A stretch of 20,070 nt of DNA from a virus, in the IMG/VR virus record IMGVR_UViG_3300043410_000949, positions 1-20,070 of that record; one strand, 5' to 3'. Below are positions 7,372 to 18,534 of the stretch, piece after piece. A model generated the notes under the pieces. That model was not told the origin of the DNA. It saw nothing but the letters and a program-made list of their open reading frames with translations, and made no database searches. Positions within the stretch are counted from its first letter, which is position 1. Every line of letters begins with the position of its first letter. The position numbers and the translations under genes are program-made.

Positions 7372-7635
7372 TTGCTTAAAAAAACTCGTAGCATCCTAGA
7401 GGAACTGGATAGTCATTTTCTGGAAAAAGACAAGGAAAATGTACTAGAAAGTCGTGCTGATCACGTAATACAAGGTGCTATACATCTAATCAACATGATT
7501 AGAGAAAATTATGATAGCGAATCTGCGGCTGAACTTGAGCGTCGTTTGTTAAACAGTATACGAGCTCAAGACCCAAATAAATTTACAAGAGGGATCAGGA
7601 GAATTCGCAGTGAAAATAACACATCTAACAAATAA
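7372..7635 (+). CDS. Small conserved phage protein with TTG start
   Basis: An 87-residue, highly charged, all-helical protein (KKTRSILEELDSHFLEKDKENV at the start is more than a family hint: this opening is familiar from marine T4-like phages, function unknown). The TTG start is supported by GGAG at 7361-7364 with a 7-base spacer, and there is no ATG near it. The N-terminus contains ILEE and VLES but neither fits the [L/I]-x-E|[A/G/S] cleavage rule seen in the following genes. The 3' end overlaps the next gene by 26 bases. A role in head assembly is possible from position only. Confidence 0.75.
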   Translation: MLKKTRSILEELDSHFLEKDKENVLESRADHVIQGAIHLINMIRENYDSESAAELERRLLNSIRAQDPNKFTRGIRRIRSENNTSNK

Positions 7636-10330
7636 CGAAGAATTTGATATAGCGGCAAATCCGATATATCACGAGACAGTTCAACTGGTTCGCGAATTCA
7701 ACATGTTGTGTGAAGGACAAGCACTAAGTCCTGAACAAGTTAATCAGCTGTTTACAGCCGCTGAAGAAACAATGAACAGCACCAACAAGAATCGCACCAT
7801 GGCGGGCAAAGCAGGGGAACTGCTAGGCAAGCTGGGACAAAAGATTCAATCAGGCGCACACTGGTTACAAGATACAACTGGTGTTAAGTTTCTTGACAAA
7901 GGATTCAAAGAACTCAAACAAGGAATTACACAACGCCTAGGCAACACAGAAGGTGGCGCCGCTCTATTAAGAAAACTAGACTACTGGGCACAGCTACATC
8001 AAAAGTATCCTACAACCAGCAAATTCTTTTACAACACCATTGCAGTACTAACTGGTGGTTTGTCACAAGGTTTAACAGCACCTGCACTATTGAGTCTTGC
8101 TAAAACAGCAGACGGTGTTTTGCAAGGTGAACAATTAAGTACAGCGTTTGGTCGTGGTGTTGCCACTGGTTCAAAAGCATTGGCTGTTAGCAAAGGTATT
8201 GATGCTGCCAAGGCAGCTGGTCACTATGCCGCAGACGTTGGCGGAGACATTGCACAAGGTATTGGTAACCTTGGTGCTGCCGCTAAAGCCAAAGCAGGTG
8301 CCGCCGCTGATGCAGTCAGAGCAGGCGCACACAAATTTGCACAGTCTACACAAGACTTGATTCCTAATGCAAATGCAGACACTATTACCCCAGGGGGCGG
8401 CGAAGCACCTCCAGCTGTTGTGCCACCTAAGCCAGCAGTAGTACCACCCAAGCCAGCTGATGTGCCCGGAGGCGGAGGTGACGCACCTGTAGTACCACCT
8501 AAGCCAGCAGTAGTACCACCCAAGCCAGCGGATGTTCCGGGAGGTGGTGATACCCCTGCAGGTGGCGAAGTTGTTGTTGCAAAAGGTGACCAAATTGGAA
8601 AACTAGCTGCCGCCAAAGGACAGACTGCACAACAATGGATTGATGCCAATCCTGAAATGGCCGCAAAGTTAAACAAGGCAGGTACAAACCTACCAATTGG
8701 TACAAAATTACAAGTTCCAACTGCACCAAAGCCAGCTGGTTCAAATGTATGGACAGGATACAAAGGCGGCCTGGCCAATGAAGCATATATTATTCCTGGC
8801 AAAGGACTATTAGAAGGTTTCAGCATTGTTAGTTTGCCATTGTCGCAGTTTGTTGACCGTCAGCTAACAGAACAAAAGAGTACTCTAAATAAATCTCTAG
8901 GTCGTAGCGTTAACAGTATTTCTCTAACACCAGTTGGTGTACAGACAATCTTCTTTAACGTAGAAAAACTACACGAACATGTTATAGCACAAGAAGCACG
9001 CCGTAACAGATTTGGTCGCGAAACAAGTACAGCGTTGGGCAGACAAGCTGGTAAGAGAGGTCAGACTGCACAGCAGTTTGCACAATCAAACCCAGTAGGA
9101 GCCGCTACCACGGCAATGACCAACCCAACAACCAATGACTATCGTATGGATCAGCCTGCTGACCCAATGTCAACTCGTCAACCTGGTGATGTAGCGGCAA
9201 TGAACCGAGGCATGGATCGTTATAAGTTAAACATTGATAACAGACCAAAACCTAAACCAGGTGAAGATCCAACAATGGATGCTGTACCAGGGGATGATGT
9301 TACACCTGGGGCAGATACTGCACCAGCACCAAATCTTGATACCACACATAAAGGTCCGGTTGGAGGCAGCTTCCTAGACCGTGTTGAAAAAGGTTTGAAC
9401 TATGCAGGTGGCAAGATATCTGATGCATGGAAATATGCAACTACCAAAGTCACTGCTGAACGTTTGCAGAACATTTGGAAAGACATGGGCTCCAAGGCAG
9501 ACTCTGACCAGGTAGCACAAGTTCTATTGCGTGGCGGCGTTCCTGTAGACATGATACAAAGTTTGTATTCACAAATGGGATTGCCAGAGCCTCAGAATCT
9601 TACACCACCAGCTGGTGCCGCACAAACTGATGATGAAATCACAGCAGCCGCAAATGCCGCACTACGTGGTGGACCTCCATTGACCATGGCGCAAAAGGTT
9701 CGCTTGGATATGATGCGTAAGAAACAAGGTCTAAGACCAATAGATAATATTCCAGTGGACAGAGGCGATGGTGCTAGTACTAGCAGTACAGTTGGTAGCT
9801 TGAGCTCTCCTAATGCATCATCAGGTGGTGCTAGTGCAAGCACAGACACAGGCGGAGCAGAAACAGGAACCACAACTTCTAGTAGTTCCGGCGATGGTGT
9901 CACAGCACAAGCAACAAATACTATATTGCCACAGATCGCACGTATGGTTGGCACACAGTATGCAGATGACTTAATTACAATTATTGACACTGCAATGAGT
10001 GTACTACAACGTAGTGCTCCAACTGCCTATAGAGAAAAACTAATGGCATTGCGTGGACAAACAGCTGGCGAACAACTTGAGAAGCCACAAGAGATTGTAA
10101 AGAGAACCACTGCTCCAAGAAATAAAAAAGCTCCGTTGAAAGTACCTAAGAGAAAACTTGGACCAACTGGTGTAGTCGGCACACCGACTCCAACATCAAC
10201 TCCAACAGCAGAACCTGCAACAGGTACTCTTGGCGAGTCACGTAGAGTCTACGGTGGCAAATACATCAAGGAATCTATTGATAAAAAGTTATCAAGAGAA
10301 TTTGAAAACTTCTTATTGAAAATGGAGTAA
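7610..10330 (+). CDS. Large Ala/Pro-rich virion-type protein with LysM-like domain
   Basis: A 906-residue protein starting at GTG 7610, supported by AGGAG at 7597-7601. Residues 1-36 include MLCE|G, a prohead-protease-type site at E35. Residues 60-245 are alanine- and glycine-rich helices. Residues 269-317 hold two copies of a proline-rich repeat with PPKPAVVPPKPADVPGGG. Residues about 320-370 look like a LysM domain (VVVAKGDQIGKLAA at its start, IGTKLQVP at its end), a peptidoglycan-binding fold. Then come long low-complexity linkers and a helical C-terminal part with ILPQIARMVGTQYADDL near residue 770. The C-terminus has two further sites (LGE876|S and IKE888|S). It is probably a structural or injected virion protein; no enzyme motif is seen. 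The function is inferred from composition and place. Confidence 0.8.
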   Translation: MKITHLTNNEEFDIAANPIYHETVQLVREFNMLCEGQALSPEQVNQLFTAAEETMNSTNKNRTMAGKAGELLGKLGQKIQSGAHWLQDTTGVKFLDKGFKELKQGITQRLGNTEGGAALLRKLDYWAQLHQKYPTTSKFFYNTIAVLTGGLSQGLTAPALLSLAKTADGVLQGEQLSTAFGRGVATGSKALAVSKGIDAAKAAGHYAADVGGDIAQGIGNLGAAAKAKAGAAADAVRAGAHKFAQSTQDLIPNANADTITPGGGEAPPAVVPPKPAVVPPKPADVPGGGGDAPVVPPKPAVVPPKPADVPGGGDTPAGGEVVVAKGDQIGKLAAAKGQTAQQWIDANPEMAAKLNKAGTNLPIGTKLQVPTAPKPAGSNVWTGYKGGLANEAYIIPGKGLLEGFSIVSLPLSQFVDRQLTEQKSTLNKSLGRSVNSISLTPVGVQTIFFNVEKLHEHVIAQEARRNRFGRETSTALGRQAGKRGQTAQQFAQSNPVGAATTAMTNPTTNDYRMDQPADPMSTRQPGDVAAMNRGMDRYKLNIDNRPKPKPGEDPTMDAVPGDDVTPGADTAPAPNLDTTHKGPVGGSFLDRVEKGLNYAGGKISDAWKYATTKVTAERLQNIWKDMGSKADSDQVAQVLLRGGVPVDMIQSLYSQMGLPEPQNLTPPAGAAQTDDEITAAANAALRGGPPLTMAQKVRLDMMRKKQGLRPIDNIPVDRGDGASTSSTVGSLSSPNASSGGASASTDTGGAETGTTTSSSSGDGVTAQATNTILPQIARMVGTQYADDLITIIDTAMSVLQRSAPTAYREKLMALRGQTAGEQLEKPQEIVKRTTAPRNKKAPLKVPKRKLGPTGVVGTPTPTSTPTAEPATGTLGESRRVYGGKYIKESIDKKLSREFENFLLKME
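8423..8529 (+). repeat. Two 35-base exact repeats with 72-base period, coding for PPKP repeats
   Basis: Bases 8423-8457 and 8495-8529 are identical. They encode PPKPAVVPPKPA twice, in frame, 24 codons apart. Each copy itself contains two near copies of a 21-base unit. Such arrays change length by slippage or recombination. Confidence 0.85.
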
Positions 10331-10333
10331 GCA

Positions 10334-11104
10334 ATGCAGTTAAGTGAAGGCGGAAATGCTATTCCTACATCCGTGCCTGTTGCTCGCGCGGATGTAGCAA
10401 AGATTGTATCAACAGCCAAACGTTTATTGCCTGCTGAACTATTAAAGCGTATTCAAACAGACATTGGCAGTGCTGGATACAAAGTTGAATCTGGTGACAT
10501 TGATGTCATGGTAGAAGCTGAAGATGTTGTGGCGTTGTTTCAAACACAAAGCGAAAAGAATCCTGTGTTGGCCGCTAAGAAAGCCTTGGAAGCCTACTTC
10601 CGTGGCAAAGGAATTGAAGCCAAAGTAAACGGTAACAATGTCAGCATTGGTATTCCGTATGGCAAAGCAGTAGCACAGGTTGACGTCATGGTCATACATG
10701 ATGCCGCATTGGTTGCGCCATATCACCAACATGGCCCACGTGGCAGTTACAGCGATGCTGATTTCAAAGGACAAGCAATCTTTGTATTGATGAACAGCAT
10801 TGGTAAAGCACTGGGCTACAAGTTTGATGCATTTGGTGCTAAACTCATGCGCCGTGATGACAACACAGTTGTTGCACGTGACAGAGATGCTGTTGCCAAA
10901 GCATTGTTGAATCCTAAAGCCACTGGCGATGATCTTAACAGCGTGAAAAGTATCATGCGAGCATTAGAAAACGATCCAATGCGTAACGAAAAACTGGCAC
11001 AGGCACGTGAAGATGAAAAGAAAGGTTTTATTTCATTGCACGAACCTTTGGCAGAAGGATCAGCACCTTGGTTCCGTATGATGCAAAGTATCTTGGTGCA
11101 ATGA
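10334..11104 (+). CDS. Nucleotidyltransferase-fold protein 1, likely capsid cargo
   Basis: A 256-residue protein with the pol-beta nucleotidyltransferase signature: a helix, then SGDIDVMV at residues 53-60 (two metal-binding aspartates D55 and D57) and a third acidic residue at D117 in AQVDVMVI. This fold transfers nucleotides to RNA, proteins or small molecules. The very N-terminus, MQLSE|GG, fits the T4 prohead-protease site [L/I]-x-E|[G/A/S]; another, LAE241|G, lies near the C-terminus. From memory, cyanophages carry related proteins starting MQLxEGGN. The expected GS motif before the aspartates is weak (GSAGY at 45-49). It follows the 906-residue gene after 3 bases and abuts the second nucleotidyltransferase gene with no gap. 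The target is unknown. Confidence 0.75.
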   Translation: MQLSEGGNAIPTSVPVARADVAKIVSTAKRLLPAELLKRIQTDIGSAGYKVESGDIDVMVEAEDVVALFQTQSEKNPVLAAKKALEAYFRGKGIEAKVNGNNVSIGIPYGKAVAQVDVMVIHDAALVAPYHQHGPRGSYSDADFKGQAIFVLMNSIGKALGYKFDAFGAKLMRRDDNTVVARDRDAVAKALLNPKATGDDLNSVKSIMRALENDPMRNEKLAQAREDEKKGFISLHEPLAEGSAPWFRMMQSILVQ

Positions 11105-12124
11105 ATGAAAAGTTGGGAATTTCTTACTGAGGGTGGATGGGACACAACTGTCACACAAGGCACAGTTATTAAACCCGCGGTTGTAAAAACTGCACTTGGT
11201 GTTGTACAAAACTTTGTCAAAGACTTCAATCGTTTTTTAGCCGCACACAATCAAGGACCAGTTGAAATGGGTCGCCCCACTGGATCCAGCGCATATCACG
11301 AGCGTGATCAAGAAGCAGACCCAGACAAGATCTATGGTGACATTGATCTACAAATGATTGCTCCTCCGGTTGAAGGACTAACCTACGGTCAGTTTACAAC
11401 TCACTGGAACAAACTAGCAGATGAATTTGTTCGTACACAAACTCCTAGTTATGTACACAACACTGAAAGCAAACCAGGACATCCTATATTTCAAATTGGT
11501 CCTAATGCCTATGTACAGGTAGACTTCATGTGGCACGAAGAACGTTTGCGTGACTGGGGTGCCACTCGTGTAACACCAGAGCATGGTGTTAAAGGTTTAC
11601 TAACAGGTAATATGTACAGCGTGTTTGGTGAGCTGATGGATCTAAGTATTCAACATGCAGGCGTACAATTAAAAATACAAGATGGTCAGCATGTGCCTTT
11701 TAGCAAACAAAAAGGCACACAGGTTATCACAGTTACCACAAGCCCAGGTACTTTTATATTAGATACATTTAGATATCTTGCAGAACAACTGGGCATACAC
11801 GATCCACAGATAAGTCCGTTGTTAAAACAGTTTCCGGGCAATGACATCAATGATGTACGTATTGAGAAATTGGTGCAAGGTGTTAAAGGATTTGCAGCCA
11901 GCGCAGAAGCAAATGGTATGTTTGGTAAAGGCGCACTGGCTAAGTATAGTTCAGCTGGCGATTTTATGTCTGCATTCTGGAATCGCTACAAAGAAAAAGC
12001 CATGATTGATGTTGAGGGCAAAAAGCGTGACAAGGCACAGACACCTGACGCTATTGCACGTGCAGACAACGATCGCAAGAAAATTTTACAAGGACTAAAA
12101 ATGGTCCAAGGTTATTTCCAATGA
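11105..12124 (+). CDS. Nucleotidyltransferase-fold protein 2, likely capsid cargo
   Basis: A 339-residue protein with a clearer pol-beta-type active site: a GS motif in RPTGSSAY (residues 57-64), YGDIDLQM at 77-84 with aspartates D79 and D81, and a third aspartate D140 in VQVDFMWHE. The helical C-terminal half ends in a basic region (GKKRDKAQ). The N-terminus MKSWEFLTE|GG closely resembles the capsid-targeting leader of the T4 internal proteins and carries a prohead-protease-type site after E9. The start directly follows the stop of the first nucleotidyltransferase gene, and its stop overlaps the ligase-like gene (ATGA). The two transferases differ in length and sequence, so they are not a recent duplication. 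Substrate unknown. Confidence 0.78.
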   Translation: MKSWEFLTEGGWDTTVTQGTVIKPAVVKTALGVVQNFVKDFNRFLAAHNQGPVEMGRPTGSSAYHERDQEADPDKIYGDIDLQMIAPPVEGLTYGQFTTHWNKLADEFVRTQTPSYVHNTESKPGHPIFQIGPNAYVQVDFMWHEERLRDWGATRVTPEHGVKGLLTGNMYSVFGELMDLSIQHAGVQLKIQDGQHVPFSKQKGTQVITVTTSPGTFILDTFRYLAEQLGIHDPQISPLLKQFPGNDINDVRIEKLVQGVKGFAASAEANGMFGKGALAKYSSAGDFMSAFWNRYKEKAMIDVEGKKRDKAQTPDAIARADNDRKKILQGLKMVQGYFQ

Positions 12125-13275
12125 AGATATTTGAAGTATTTGAACGCAAGCCAGAGCCTCGCTTTATAGTTGAGGGCATTGTGCATCCAGAAGACCGTGT
12201 GTGGACTGATGGCATTGCCGGCGCCAAGCGTTCTGTTGCTGAGTTATCTGGCATGACATCCGGCAAGGAATTAACCACAATCAAGTGGGACGGGTTTCCT
12301 GCACTGGTGTTTGGTCGCAACGTAGACGGCCAGCTATTGGTAACTGACAAGCACATGTTTGAAAAGAAAGATGGATCAGGTCGTGTGACCAGTCCAGAAG
12401 AATTTCAACAGTATGATGTCAATCGTGGTGCTGACCGTTCAGACCTGTATGGCAAAATTAACATACTGTGGCCAGCACTGGAAGCAATCATTCCTTCAAA
12501 CTTTAGAGGATTTTATTTTGGCGACTTGTTGTATGCAGGCCGTTTGCAACCAGCAAATGGTGTGTACACATTCAAACCTAACACAGTGACATACCGAGTT
12601 CCTCTTAAACTAGGCAACCAGCCTAATCCAGTGGCAGAAAAAATTGCAAGTAGCATTGGTGGAATAGCGGTACACAGTTTCATTCCTGGCATTGGCGAAC
12701 CAGACCAGCCACTGAAAGGCACAGGCGGATTGCCAACTGATGGTAATCCAATTTGGTTTGTAACAGGTGAAATGCCTGTTCCCAAAGTAACCATTGCACC
12801 TGCTTCACAAAAAACAGTAAATGCAGTAATAGACAAATACGATACCGCGGTAACAGACTTCCTAGGACAACTTACCGCAATGAAAGCCAAAGGAATAATT
12901 GGCTTGGCCAGCAAATACATTACCAGCAAAATCACAGCAGGTAATTTTGATCACATGCTGGAAGGCTTCTACGCATACCTAAATGCCAACTTGTCTCCAG
13001 GCGCTAATCAAAAGTTGCTGGGTGGCGGACAAGGATGGTTGTACAAAGAAGGTAGAGCAGGACTCGAAGGCATGTTTGCTATATGGGTAGCATTGTACAA
13101 TTTCAAACTTGAAATTAAAAAGCAAATTGATGCACAGCAAGCATCCAGTGGAGTACAGGCATTCACAGGCAGCGATCCTGGACACGAAGGATATGTTGTA
13201 GGTGGTGGTGCAGACAAGTTTAAGTTAATTGACCGACTGGGATTTAGTAAAGCAAACTTTGCTAAAAATGGATAA
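12121..13275 (+). CDS. DNA/RNA-ligase-fold protein (DUF6267-like), likely capsid cargo
   Basis: A 384-residue protein with the ordered motifs of the covalent nucleotidyltransferase (ligase and capping enzyme) family: motif I TIKWDGFPA with K55 as the nucleotide-accepting lysine, a motif III-like GFYFGDLL at 130-137, motif IV HEGYVV with E356, and motif V KFKLID at 366-371. The KWDGxPAxVFGR wording matches phage proteins I recall as DUF6267. The distance from motif III to IV is long (about 220 residues), so there is a large insert and the protein is not a standard ligase. The leader MKIFEVFERKPEPRFIVE|G carries a prohead-protease-type site after E18. Both ends overlap neighbours (ATGA and TAATG). 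It may seal or adenylate nucleic acid on entry into the host; the reaction is not proved. Confidence 0.75.
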   Translation: MKIFEVFERKPEPRFIVEGIVHPEDRVWTDGIAGAKRSVAELSGMTSGKELTTIKWDGFPALVFGRNVDGQLLVTDKHMFEKKDGSGRVTSPEEFQQYDVNRGADRSDLYGKINILWPALEAIIPSNFRGFYFGDLLYAGRLQPANGVYTFKPNTVTYRVPLKLGNQPNPVAEKIASSIGGIAVHSFIPGIGEPDQPLKGTGGLPTDGNPIWFVTGEMPVPKVTIAPASQKTVNAVIDKYDTAVTDFLGQLTAMKAKGIIGLASKYITSKITAGNFDHMLEGFYAYLNANLSPGANQKLLGGGQGWLYKEGRAGLEGMFAIWVALYNFKLEIKKQIDAQQASSGVQAFTGSDPGHEGYVVGGGADKFKLIDRLGFSKANFAKNG

Positions 13276-13829
13276 TGTTTGACTTTATAAAAGAAGAAAT
13301 ATTTGAAGCACGTATGTTTCGCACACCAGTGAGTGTCAGCGGGCGCACAGCCGCAGATCTTGCACGTGTGTTGTATGTGTCTTTGCTTGCAGTAGAACTG
13401 GTCAGACAAATAGATGAGCGCACAGCACAACACTATGCCGCACTCACAATACAGTGGGGCGACTTTGATCACATACGCGGCAGTGCAACAGACTTGGCCA
13501 ACATAATTGCTGTACTAAGCAACCAGCGTGACTTTGAAAAATATGTAGAGCCCAACTATGACATCAGCGCACCTGTGCTACAGATTAAAAGTTACCTGCG
13601 TAGCGTATGGCAGGGCTACTGGTTTCACGGACGTGATAGACAAGCGTTTATGAACATAGAAACCATGCTGGGCATCAGCGACAGCACACTGAGTCAAATA
13701 CGCAGAATTGTGCTGGACTGGAAACTGTATGAAGTCAATGATCACAAAACAGCAGTTCATAATATACGCAGAGAATTGTCCCGTCATGCAGTGCGTTTAG
13801 ATCTAATTGAATTCTTACCAAACCTCTAA
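13275..13829 (+). CDS. Unknown helical protein with capsid-cargo leader
   Basis: A 184-residue mostly helical protein, rich in arginine and aromatic residues (SVWQGYWFHGRDRQAF near 111). The start MFDFIKEEIFE|A fits the prohead-protease site after E11, as in its three upstream neighbours. The region IETMLGISDSTLSQIRRIVLDWK (about 128-150) looks like a helix-turn-helix, but I cannot name a family. The ATG overlaps the ligase-like gene's TAA, so it belongs to the same translation unit, and the unit ends here before a late promoter box. It may be a partner of the three enzymes. Confidence 0.7.
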   Translation: MFDFIKEEIFEARMFRTPVSVSGRTAADLARVLYVSLLAVELVRQIDERTAQHYAALTIQWGDFDHIRGSATDLANIIAVLSNQRDFEKYVEPNYDISAPVLQIKSYLRSVWQGYWFHGRDRQAFMNIETMLGISDSTLSQIRRIVLDWKLYEVNDHKTAVHNIRRELSRHAVRLDLIEFLPNL

Positions 13830-14430: not shown

Positions 14431-14455
14431 AAGGCACTTTTACAGTGCCTTTTTT
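14431..14455 (+). terminator. Rho-independent terminator
   Basis: AAGGCACT (14431-14438) pairs perfectly with AGTGCCTT (14444-14451) around a 5-base loop, followed by a T run. A weaker hairpin, AACTG/CAGTT (14401-14418) flanked by TTTCTT/AAGAAA, lies directly before it at the gene end. Confidence 0.88.
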
Positions 14456-14474
14456 GTTGGCCATAAGTAAGTGT

Positions 14475-14909
14475 ATGAGCACAAGAGATCAAGTCATCAC
14501 AGCATTTACATTGGTGGACATAACACAGACAGGTGTTATACGTGACACTGACGGGCGTGAGCTTGAAAGAAATCAACAGCGTAACTGGGAAACAGTATTA
14601 CAATGCATTGGTATCCGAGCACAGCCTATGAACATTCAGATGCCGCCGGGACCAATTGAACATGCTGAAATGAAAAACTACGAGTTTGGAGAATTCTTCA
14701 CAGGCGAACACAAGGTCTGGGCATTTAGTTTTTCAGTTGAACATCCAGATGTTTTCCACGATGGGAAAAGCCGCTTGGGATACCTGGAAGATTCATTTAA
14801 TGAAGTTCCTATCATAAGCTATCTGACAGAAACTGCACGTTTTATGTTGCCTATCTTTTATACTCATGGCGCTATCAAAAACATATATTTTAAGATACGC
14901 GAAATTTGA
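14475..14909 (+). CDS. Conserved phage protein, unknown function
   Basis: A 144-residue protein starting at the ATG at 14475 (MSTRDQVITAF); a non-ATG start 30 bases earlier would lie in the terminator tail and is rejected. Distinctive stretches are RNQQRNWETVLQCIGIRAQP and ETARFMLPIFYTHGAI. No membrane segment or catalytic motif is clear. I recall similar proteins in marine T4-like phages next to capsid genes. No strong ribosome site is seen, so low expression by read-through past the terminator or an internal promoter is possible. Confidence 0.75.
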   Translation: MSTRDQVITAFTLVDITQTGVIRDTDGRELERNQQRNWETVLQCIGIRAQPMNIQMPPGPIEHAEMKNYEFGEFFTGEHKVWAFSFSVEHPDVFHDGKSRLGYLEDSFNEVPIISYLTETARFMLPIFYTHGAIKNIYFKIREI

Positions 14910-15470: not shown

Positions 15471-16029
15471 GAAGCCTACTAAAAATTTGGTAGAACTAGC
15501 TAACACACAAGCGGCAACAGAAACCATAGCCCAATTACTTGCTAGATTATTAGACAAGTGGACTAAATCAGAATTAAGCAGACTGGTAGCAAACAATCGG
15601 CTGGTATGCATTGATCTATCAAAAAATCTGTACAGAATAGGCAACCATACCCTGCAAAAACACAAAGACCAAAGCTGGTCGGTGCGCGGTATAGACGGCC
15701 AGTTTGTACACAGTTTTATAAGCAAACACGCCGCTGTTTTTTACTGTTTGTACGAAAGCAAGCGCATGTATCATAAATCCAGAGAGTTCCTAAACATGGA
15801 CGCAGAGCTGGATAGAATGTCAAAACAAGTCACAGAATACGTAACTTATCTGAAGTTAGCTATAGAGCACAAAGACACGTTCAAGCAGGATCTGTACATA
15901 GCCCGTTTGAGCTATGCGGCTCCCAAGCTAGAATTGTTGGAAACTAATCTACAGAAAAGTATTATCAGTGCTAAATACTCTAAAGTTTGGGAATTTAATA
16001 ACCATGAAACTACAAGAACTCGCCACTAG
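15436..16029 (+). CDS. Conserved basic phage protein, unknown function
   Basis: A 197-residue protein starting at ATG 15436 (MGTSHTSKKRRKKPTKN); a GTG 24 bases upstream is possible but the lysine- and arginine-rich opening is the natural N-terminus. The first 25 residues are strongly basic and could bind DNA. The rest is helical with a central beta part (NLYRIGNHTLQKHKDQSWSV) and a C-terminal pair of long helices (AELDRMSKQVTEYVTYLKLA). No known motif. It overlaps both neighbours (35 and 26 bases). Confidence 0.7.
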   Translation: MGTSHTSKKRRKKPTKNLVELANTQAATETIAQLLARLLDKWTKSELSRLVANNRLVCIDLSKNLYRIGNHTLQKHKDQSWSVRGIDGQFVHSFISKHAAVFYCLYESKRMYHKSREFLNMDAELDRMSKQVTEYVTYLKLAIEHKDTFKQDLYIARLSYAAPKLELLETNLQKSIISAKYSKVWEFNNHETTRTRH

Positions 16030-16711
16030 ACCAACATCACGTAAAATCAATCGCATCAACGAAAGCCGTTTTGGCTTCAGCATTGATTACAACAATTTAA
16101 CCGTAAACAAGGCACGCAAGCTAAGTCATGCACTTAGCGAAAGCCTTGGCAAGCTCAAGCAGAGCTTTGGTGTACACACCGCACAAAAGAATCCAAAGTA
16201 CATGGAATTGCTTATGGTGCGCGAAGGACTCAATCGCTGGATTGACGAAAACCGCCCACTGACAGAAAGCGAAATTGCCAAGTCCGGCGCTATTCTAGCT
16301 GCCAAGGATATTGTTGACAGCTTCCAAGACATGTTGGAAGATATCAGCAAAATGCAGAACGAACAACTGCCTGCATTGCTAGACACAATTCGTGACCAAA
16401 TTGGTCAGCCACAGGCTGATGCATTCAAGGGCACAGTTGTACCATTGCTACAAGAACTTGTAGGACAACTACAAACAGCTCGTGAAACAGCCGACGGAGC
16501 CGCACGTACATTGGCAGGCGAACAAGTTGCCGCACCAATGGGCATGCCAGGCGCTGATGCTGGTATGGGTGGTATGCCACCTGCACCAGGTGGTGACATG
16601 GGCGGTGCTCCTGCTCCAGACATGGGCAGTGACCTTGACGCAGGCGATGAGTTTGGCGCAACAGATGCTGCCGCTGGTGGCCCAGAGAATCTAGGCCGCG
16701 GCAAGAGGTAA
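16004..16711 (+). CDS. Probable prohead core / capsid-internal protein
   Basis: A 235-residue protein. The basic leader ends in RINE|SRFG (site after E20), fitting the prohead-protease rule. Residues 25-170 are helical and coiled-coil-like (LEDISKMQNEQLPALLDTI); the last 60 residues are a Gly/Met/Ala/Pro/Asp-rich acidic tail. Helical body plus acidic low-complexity tail plus cleavage site is the pattern of T4 prohead core proteins, which are cut and leave or stay in the head. I recall close relatives in cyanophages beginning MKL-x-ELATRP. Further matches (LSE|S and LTE|S) occur inside. The start is the ATG at 16004, within the previous gene; six bases separate it from the next gene. Confidence 0.78.
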   Translation: MKLQELATRPTSRKINRINESRFGFSIDYNNLTVNKARKLSHALSESLGKLKQSFGVHTAQKNPKYMELLMVREGLNRWIDENRPLTESEIAKSGAILAAKDIVDSFQDMLEDISKMQNEQLPALLDTIRDQIGQPQADAFKGTVVPLLQELVGQLQTARETADGAARTLAGEQVAAPMGMPGADAGMGGMPPAPGGDMGGAPAPDMGSDLDAGDEFGATDAAAGGPENLGRGKR

Positions 16712-16717
16712 TCGGCC

Positions 16718-17104
16718 ATGCGAGTTCGAGAGCTGTTTGAAAGCGACTCGACTGCACAACTCAAAGCTCAGATTTTAACTGTGCTTGATTTTCTGCGTAA
16801 CCGAGATCACAATAAAAAGTTATTACCCAAGCACACCACCCTTAGCGTTATCAACATGGTAAACAACGCAATGGGTGGTGAAATTCTTACCTATGAACTG
16901 TTGGATCAAATGAAATCGAACAACAGCGAAATAGGTGGGTTGATTACCAACATGGATCGAAACACTATCAGTCTCAAACCATTTGGTGACGAGCCTGGTG
17001 CACCACAAGAGCCAACTGATGCTGAAGGCGGTGGTGGTAATGCCAAAGATCCAACTGCCATTGTTAACAAAATGGCACAACGTGCAGCCTCAAACCGTCA
17101 ATAA
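16718..17104 (+). CDS. Small capsid-associated phage protein
   Basis: A 128-residue protein with leader MRVRELFE|SDS, a prohead-protease-type site after E8. Residues 12-85 are helical (LKAQILTVLDFLRNR; LSVINMVNNAMGG), then ISLKPFG and a Gly/Glu/Asp/Pro-rich linker, and a short basic C-terminal helix. Similar small proteins follow the preceding core-type protein in marine T4-like phages, as far as I recall. It is the last gene before a late promoter box. A role as a minor prohead component is inferred from leader and position. Confidence 0.72.
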   Translation: MRVRELFESDSTAQLKAQILTVLDFLRNRDHNKKLLPKHTTLSVINMVNNAMGGEILTYELLDQMKSNNSEIGGLITNMDRNTISLKPFGDEPGAPQEPTDAEGGGGNAKDPTAIVNKMAQRAASNRQ

Positions 17105-17764: not shown

Positions 17765-18211
17765 ATGGCATACTCAGACAAAGTAATCGATCATTATGAA
17801 AACCCACGCAACGTGGGCAAGCTGGAAATTGACGACACCGTTGGTACTGGCATGGTTGGAGCACCTGCCTGTGGTGACGTCATGAAACTGCAAATAAAGG
17901 TACAAGATGGAATCATCACAGACGCCAAATTCAAAACATATGGTTGTGGTTCTGCGATTGCGTCGAGCTCTCTTGTTACAGAATGGGTTAAAGGCAAGAC
18001 ACTGGACGAAGCAGGATCTATCAAGAATAGCGACATTGCTGAAGAGCTTGCTCTCCCACCCGTGAAGATACATTGCTCTATTCTAGCAGAGGACGCTATC
18101 AAAGCGGCCATTGAAGACTACAAAAAGAAACATGTGGATGATGAGCTTGAAGCGTACAAGCGACAAGCACAAGAGCTATGGAATGATTCTTGCACATCAG
18201 TGAGATCATGA
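17765..18211 (+). CDS. iscU: IscU-type iron-sulfur cluster scaffold
   Basis: A 148-residue IscU homologue on which new Fe-S clusters are built before transfer to target proteins. All key residues are visible: PACGD (C36, D38), YGCGSA (C61), and LPPVKIHCS (97-105) with H103 and C104. LPPVK is the motif by which IscU is recognised by the chaperone HscA. Bacterial IscU is about 128 residues; here a helical, charged tail of about 20 residues follows, with an extra cysteine C143. No cysteine desulfurase (IscS) is encoded nearby, so sulfur must come from the host. The stop overlaps iscA (ATGA). As an auxiliary metabolic gene it probably supports Fe-S enzymes during infection. Confidence 0.95.
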   Translation: MAYSDKVIDHYENPRNVGKLEIDDTVGTGMVGAPACGDVMKLQIKVQDGIITDAKFKTYGCGSAIASSSLVTEWVKGKTLDEAGSIKNSDIAEELALPPVKIHCSILAEDAIKAAIEDYKKKHVDDELEAYKRQAQELWNDSCTSVRS

Positions 18212-18534
18212 TAACCTTAACCGAACGTGCGGCAAACAAAGTACTCAAGGCCTTGGATCAACGTGGTCGAGGCGTGGGCATACGCATAGGTGTTAAAACC
18301 ACTGGTTGCTCTGGCTTGGCTTATGTGTTAGAATACATAGATGCTGTGCCAATCACTAGAGACTGGTTCAAGTATGAAAGTCATGGAGCCACTGTTTGGG
18401 TAAACGGTAAAGATATATTTTACCTCAATGGGCTAGAAGTCGATTATGTTCGTCAAGGACTCAATGAAGGGTTCGAATTCCGCAATCCCAACGAACGTGA
18501 TAAATGTGGATGCGGAGAAAGTTTTAGAGTATAA
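18208..18534 (+). CDS. iscA: IscA/HesB-type iron-sulfur carrier protein
   Basis: A 108-residue A-type carrier, the usual family length. The three conserved cysteines are present: C34 in TTGCSGLAY, C100 and C102 in DKCGCGESF, at the spacing of E. coli IscA. A-type carriers receive clusters from IscU and pass them to apo-enzymes. The ATG at 18208 overlaps the iscU stop (ATGA), and the TAA overlaps the next ATG (TAATG), so scaffold and carrier are produced together. HesB-like genes are known in marine phages. Adjacency of both genes argues for function as a pair. Confidence 0.95.
   Translation: MITLTERAANKVLKALDQRGRGVGIRIGVKTTGCSGLAYVLEYIDAVPITRDWFKYESHGATVWVNGKDIFYLNGLEVDYVRQGLNEGFEFRNPNERDKCGCGESFRV

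Follow-up and report, generated by a model that had tools for sequence, protein, structure and literature searches.

Four tightly coupled genes, designated here A to D, occupy positions 10,334 to 13,829 of a T4-like phage fragment 20,070 bases long (IMG/VR record IMGVR_UViG_3300043410_000949, positions 1 to 20,070; this whole stretch is referred to below as the window), and the present analysis concerns the possibility that their products are packaged in the virion and act on broken nucleic acid at the start of infection. All four genes, like the features within them and those of their upstream context, lie on the plus strand. Gene A (10334..11104; 256 amino acids) encodes a predicted PolX-like nucleotidyltransferase of the pol-beta superfamily, gene B (11105..12124; 339 amino acids) a putative second, divergent nucleotidyltransferase of pol-beta type, gene C (12121..13275; 384 amino acids) a DUF6267 protein that is probably a ligase-type covalent nucleotidyltransferase, and gene D (13275..13829; 184 amino acids) a helical partner of unknown fold. 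An earlier note, made from the sequence alone, had described four coupled genes with junctions of 0 to 4 bases and this coupling is indeed present, the A/B, B/C and C/D junctions being 0, -4 (ATGA) and -1 (TAATG) bases, respectively, and the gap between the upstream 906-amino acid open reading frame (ORF) and the start of A being 3 bases. The ratio of nonsynonymous to synonymous differences (pN/pS), calculated against homologues 60-85% identical, is 0.15-0.40 for A, B, C and D alike, which indicates purifying selection and hence that all four are real genes selected as proteins. C is the sole cassette gene having a library match; for A, B and D nothing convincing came from Pfam, PHROGs or PADLOC, nor for A from NCBIfam, and PDB-sequence profile searches with A, B and C as well as the PADLOC search returned nothing.

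The structure of A predicted by AlphaFold2 (AF2) from a 61-sequence alignment (pLDDT 91.9, pTM 0.85) was compared by Foldseek with the PDB, and family X DNA polymerases (lambda, mu and Thermus PolX) accounted for all 50 of the 50 best matches, the strongest having an E of 4.2e-6; the alignments span about 200 of the 256 residues. These matches and the conserved motifs agree with the pol-beta palm with GS...DxD...D plus thumb that is expected of PolX, so that A is probably an enzyme of this kind. Five residues (G54, D55, D57, D117 and R174) are invariant in the 61 homologues; they include D55 and D57 of the catalytic motif GS-x7-GDID (SGDID; residues 45-57, 10466..10504) and the third Asp, D117 (10682-10684). 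Thus, A shares with pol lambda, pol mu and bacterial PolX the predicted fold and the GS...SGDID...D motif but, unlike them, has no lyase domain and gives no significant sequence-profile match; as to the thumb, 2 of the 61 members match the Pfam profile PF14791, with a best E of 0.075. Within the searches made here the family of A occurs solely in phage sequences. The alternative that A, or B, might be RlaP was rejected, PF10127 being absent from the 61 A and 31 B members; this profile found no match in ten records of related phages either.

The profile of B aligns with that of A (hhalign probability 85.5%, E 5.6e-6) over a region covering GDID and QVDFM, which, judging from the sequence, suggests that B is distantly related to A and represents a second transferase of pol-beta type. 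In B the motif GS...GDID (residues 60-81, 11282..11347) supplies D79 and D81, and the third Asp is D140 (11522-11524), these three residues being invariant in 31 homologues. Accordingly, the two pol-beta-type transferases with GDID/SGDID sites that the earlier note had recognized are borne out, A by its predicted fold and B by its profile relationship to A.

C is a member of DUF6267 (PF19782; 102.3 bits, E 4.9e-29, the curated cut-off being 27 bits), as are all 66 of its 66 aligned homologues, and it also matches phrog_455, a group of unknown function. The family, with relatives in 469 phage records, is common near the replication genes of cyanophages, where it corresponds to T4-like GC 71; to our knowledge no function had been assigned to it and no mention of DUF6267 was found in the literature searched. 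Nineteen columns are invariant in the 66 homologues, including K55-W-D-G58, D135, E356-G357, V359 and K368, and the motifs follow one another in the order found in ligases, namely motif I or KxDG (KWDG, 12283..12294, in which Lys55 is the predicted nucleotidyl acceptor), motif III (GDL with D135, 12520..12528), motif IV or EGxV (EGYV, 13186..13197) and the Lys of motif V (K368 in KLIDR, 13222-13224). The set of ligase motifs attributed to C by the earlier note is therefore invariant, with the reservation that motif III has an Asp where a Glu is usual; likewise, the expectation that active-site residues would be conserved among homologues agrees with what is seen in A (61 sequences), B (31) and C (66).

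In the AF2 model of C (66-sequence alignment; pLDDT 94, pTM 0.90) a mostly helical insert (residues 227-341, 12799..13143) separates the motif III/IIIa region from motif IV, and the chain stops, in a single helix, 16 residues past K368. DNA ligases possess after motif V an oligonucleotide/oligosaccharide-binding (OB) fold domain with motif VI; the position of the chain end implies that C has no such domain. According to the authors' count, 37 of the top 50 Foldseek matches of the model in the PDB are DNA/RNA ligases or capping enzymes, and in the viral structure library BFVD the model matches a protein of jumbo phage PA5oct (E 2e-4; see below) and a protein of Atu_ph07 that carries the name RNA ligase (E 7e-3, prob 0.90). 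The invariant motifs and the confident model suggest that C is a covalent nucleotidyltransferase of the RNA/DNA-ligase type. The structural check foreseen by the earlier note thus gave an unequal outcome, assigning A to PolX at E 4.2e-6 and yielding for C a majority of ligases or capping enzymes, each at E 0.17 or above.

A further connection between C and the ligases is offered by jumbo phages. Relatives of A were found by tblastn, using a divergent A domain, in the cultivated jumbo phages PA5oct, Atu_ph07 and Phosso, and close upstream of each lies a gene, here called C' (PA5oct gp256, Atu_ph07 gp066 and Phosso 446), with the motifs EKxDG, Glu, EGxV and K. Single-sequence scans found no relatives of C', whereas an alignment scan succeeded and gave 15 loci in IMG/VR, in most of which an A homologue lies directly downstream; the order in jumbo phages is C'-A(-D), a D homologue following A in Atu_ph07 and Phosso (hidden Markov model, HMM, E 3e-27 and 1.4e-20). 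The profile of C detects C' (HMM E 2e-7; hhalign probability 96.6%, E 7e-10), so that the two are homologous, but C' differs from C in having EKxDGS as motif I and, as in RNA ligases, a Glu in motif III. Among 14 C' proteins, 6 match PF09414 RNA_ligase (best E 0.0013, below the cut-off), 5 match DUF6267 and 1 matches RNA_lig_T4_1 weakly, while PF09414 matches none of the 66 members of C itself. The chain leading from the C profile through C' to RNA_ligase, together with the structural matches, supports placing C, by indirect links, in the ligase-type superfamily. No prohead-type leader was present on A or C' in the jumbo-phage copies read. As a separate observation, in the tandem genes gp063-gp058 of the Agrobacterium phage Atu_ph07 (L261:7588-12333) an almost unchanged leader, MRWHQLxEA, recurs in several members and is followed further on by YRG motifs; these genes could possibly represent a family of injected effectors, perhaps similar to ADP-ribosyltransferases.

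In T4, the prohead protease gp21 cleaves after (L/I)xE (PMC9026906); entry of proteins into the head depends on a short leader at the N-terminus, and from the head the internal proteins are delivered into the host (PMC9026906, PMC3012670). All four cassette products (4/4) start with a short leader ending in this motif, (L/I)xE↓G/A, where the arrow is the predicted cut. The leader of A is MQLSE (10334..10348), which conforms to the (L/I)xE consensus and would be cut after LSE and before GG; the predicted cut of B lies after MKSWEFLTE (11105..11131) before GG, that of C after MKIFEVFERKPEPRFIVE (12121..12174) before G and that of D after MFDFIKEEIFE (13275..13307) before A. Among non-redundant homologues a site [LIVM]xE[GASN] occurs within the first 30 residues in 94% for A, 87% for B, 72% for C and 87% for D, counts that are not independent owing to the common ancestry of homologues, against a background of 20% among the remaining long ORFs of these contigs and 12.5% in internal 30-residue stretches. 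The capsid-cargo leaders that the earlier note had described are borne out on all four proteins, but the leader of C is lineage-specific and is missing from the DUF6267 copies of cyanophages. An S77 prohead protease (PF03420) was detected in 8 of 10 kin records and in the T4 control, the window itself being a fragment.

Relatives furnish evidence for the presence of such proteins in virions. This part of the window has a syntenic counterpart in a PA5oct block of virion proteins, the genes at 7372-7635, 14445-14909 and 15968-16711 corresponding to gp259, gp250 and gp247, and PA5oct gp253, an A homologue (E 8e-18), is annotated as a structural protein identified by electrospray ionization tandem mass spectrometry (ESI-MS/MS). 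Furthermore, in the cyanophage S-SM1 a gene of T4-GC190, whose product begins MKKFSAFLNE↓A, overlaps the DUF6267 gene, and the T4-GC190 product was detected in the virion (PMC3037559). Leader-like starts are also seen at 15968-16711 (MKLQEL...INE↓S) and 16718-17104 (MRVRELFE↓S), and the product of the former matches, besides PA5oct gp247 (ESI-MS/MS), the virion structural protein group phrog_14154.

The association of the genes was surveyed in loci having at least 3.5 kb on both sides, drawn from the best 80 matches per pattern scan and hence not an unbiased census. C is near A in 28 of 28 A loci, and A and C are each near B in 17 of 18 B loci; on the other hand, only 11 of 24 C loci have A nearby and 7 of 24 have a transferase of HIGH type, B and D being less constant than the A-C pair. 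The supposition that the four genes always occur together must therefore be abandoned: since A is accompanied by C in all of these loci and C is often without A, C represents the constant part upon which A and B depend. In 24 loci A and C are encoded as one polypeptide, to which one locus (L037) adds a HIGH domain, and in 20 of the 21 fusions with a readable linker a [LIVM]xE[GASN] site lies between A and C, as expected if the prohead protease separates A from C. The ORF of L037 (1653-5000; 1,116 amino acids), which unites C with an A-like and a HIGH-type transferase, has IAE↓G ahead of C. In other relatives leader-bearing genes, all different, are inserted between B and C (L004:1576-3102, L009:8449-9420 and L015:10999-11376), a variety which suggests that the cassette behaves like swappable cargo.

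Starting from the genes, motifs, fold of A, homology of B with A, leaders, linkage and A-C fusion computed here, we infer injection, catalysis, sealing and an RNA substrate: it is quite possible, although proposed tentatively, that A to D constitute a virion-delivered module that adds nucleotides to, and seals, broken nucleic acid, most likely RNA. The leaders would carry the four proteins into the prohead core, a gp21-type protease would remove them, and the mature proteins would enter the cell along with the DNA. There, A and B, as PolX/pol-beta-type transferases, would add nucleotides to 3' ends and C would form Lys55-nucleoside monophosphate, transfer the nucleotide to a 5' phosphate and seal the ends, D possibly being a helical accessory protein, a role suggested solely by its travelling with A and C (D has no Pfam match). 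Nucleic acid cut by host defences could in this way be restored and resealed at the start of infection, before phage gene expression. RNA, for instance a cleaved tRNA, is somewhat favoured over incoming DNA as the substrate because C has no OB domain such as DNA ligases carry, because its sequence connects it to RNA_ligase families, and because RlaP Polbeta transferases are known to be paired with RNA ligases, such pairs being a recognized repair theme (PMC7824862).

Several findings weigh against this proposal. The PDB matches of C are individually non-significant (best E 0.17, TM-score about 0.2), and when C was aligned directly by hhalign to T4 Rnl2-like ligases and to phage DNA ligases the probability was 0.3%; the assignment of B comes from its profile and motifs; and the likeness of A is to DNA polymerases and not to the RNA-end transferases known so far, the RlaP profile giving no match. 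As to partners, in 14 records no 2H end-healing enzyme was recognisable and no phosphatase of the polynucleotide kinase (PNK) type scored above the cut-off. Finally, the leader of C is confined to a lineage, the virion evidence comes from relatives of the window proteins, and PA5oct C' (gp256) has no MS-detected flag. The reading of the genes as a classical set for RNA repair, in which a PNK phosphatase or 2H enzyme would take part, was rejected, none being found above the cut-off in these 14 records.

If a polymerase and a ligase enter with the genome, could the genome itself be what they mend? In this rather unlikely alternative A and B would fill gaps and C would seal nicks or 5'-P/3'-OH breaks in incoming phage DNA, damaged within the particle or cut by restriction or CRISPR nucleases; viruses carrying PolX plus a ligase exist and are comparable in kind. 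What A matches is specifically DNA polymerases lambda and mu and bacterial PolX, the PDB matches of C feature DNA ligases prominently, the cassette adjoins primase and helicase genes, i.e., replication genes, and the missing RNA end-healing partner points in the same direction. So does the apparent lack of a DNA ligase in C-carrying cyanophages: no DNA or RNA ligase is recognisable in the DUF6267-carrying cyanophages P-HM1 and S-PM2 or in methylophage Melnitz, T4 DNA ligase being detected, and the absence of gp30 from cyanomyoviruses has been noted in a review (PMC2984593). Nevertheless, C stops after motif V without the OB domain of DNA ligases, its sequence bridge leads to RNA_ligase, and a separate DNA_ligase_A_M gene is present in 5 of 7 long IMG/VR kin.

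It is unlikely that A to D have no function as injected enzymes, the leaders merely placing them in the prohead, and that they instead form part of the head core or serve replication or packaging in the cell that produces the phage. The widespread, leaderless C of cyanophages near replication genes and the annotation of the PA5oct block products simply as structural proteins are consistent with such a role, but the catalytic residues of A, B and C are invariant, unlike those of purely structural proteins, and T4 both packages its leader-bearing internal proteins and brings them into the cell (PMC9026906, PMC3012670). Covalent modification of host proteins, RNA ends or small molecules by the transferases and C (AMPylation, capping or nicotinamide adenine dinucleotide (NAD) chemistry, akin to injected T4 Alt), with the HIGH-family transferase coupled to C elsewhere supplying or recycling the nucleotide cofactor, is quite unlikely: a PF01467 cytidylyltransferase-like (HIGH) domain is fused to or adjoins C in many relatives, and ADP-ribosyltransferases have been proposed in myovirus heads from comparative genomics, with T4 as precedent (PMC9503650), but neither the window nor any of the 28 informative A loci contains this domain, and a PolX-type A suits polymer ends better than protein targets.

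The module proposed here has counterparts among known systems. RlaP and Rnl-type RNA ligases of phages likewise couple a Polbeta-fold transferase genetically to a ligase, and these pairs were proposed to restore lost nucleotides ahead of sealing (PMC7824862), for which reason the statement that no described system has this make-up was too strong. The cassette differs from them in that A and B lack PF10127, C belongs to DUF6267 and not to Rnl1/Rnl2, and all parts bear capsid leaders. With the internal proteins IPI-III and Alt of T4 it shares the short N-terminal leader ending in (L/I)xE and, in kin, the prohead protease; unlike theirs, its cargo is a nucleotidyltransferase/ligase set, in some relatives made as A-C polyproteins with an internal protease site. 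Cyanophage DUF6267 members, in turn, differ from C in having no leader, A or B and in having a HIGH-type transferase as coupled or fused partner. The combination of Polbeta-ligase pairs with capsid cargo, each of them known already, appears to be new, as do the PolX-like A family, the placement of DUF6267 in the ligase-type superfamily and the A-C polyproteins bearing protease sites.

A wider generalization, which seems somewhat doubtful, is that a widely distributed group of T4-like and jumbo phages injects a preformed repair apparatus of polymerase and ligase, produced either as separate cargo or as one polyprotein cleaved by the prohead protease, which would repair defence-cut nucleic acid before phage gene expression, DUF6267 being its sealing enzyme and possibly the replacement of the cyanophage ligase. 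The analysis gives DUF6267 a testable function, opens the matter of the missing ligase of cyanophages to direct test and brings to light in A a new family of PolX-like phage proteins that Pfam, PHROGs and NCBIfam do not recognise; it also suggests that enzymes for the repair of nucleic acid can accompany a phage genome into the cell, a counter-defence that would act before transcription.

Upstream of the cassette (7372..10330) lie a small protein homologous to the virion structural protein gp259 of PA5oct (7372-7635; phmmer 5.9e-22) and the 906-amino acid ORF (7610-10330), which has a leader site LCE↓G. The latter product contains PPKPAVV repeats and a LysM-like stretch, diverges rapidly among relatives and is a possible candidate for a head-core protein. 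A scan for the T4 late-promoter-like sequence TATAAATA found 20 occurrences against 17.8 expected, no excess over chance. Elsewhere in the window a PIG-L family deacetylase is encoded at 1219-1761 (PF02585, E 2.9e-8), and two adjoining genes, identified by eye, encode IscU-like (17765-18211) and IscA-like (18190-18534) Fe-S assembly proteins.

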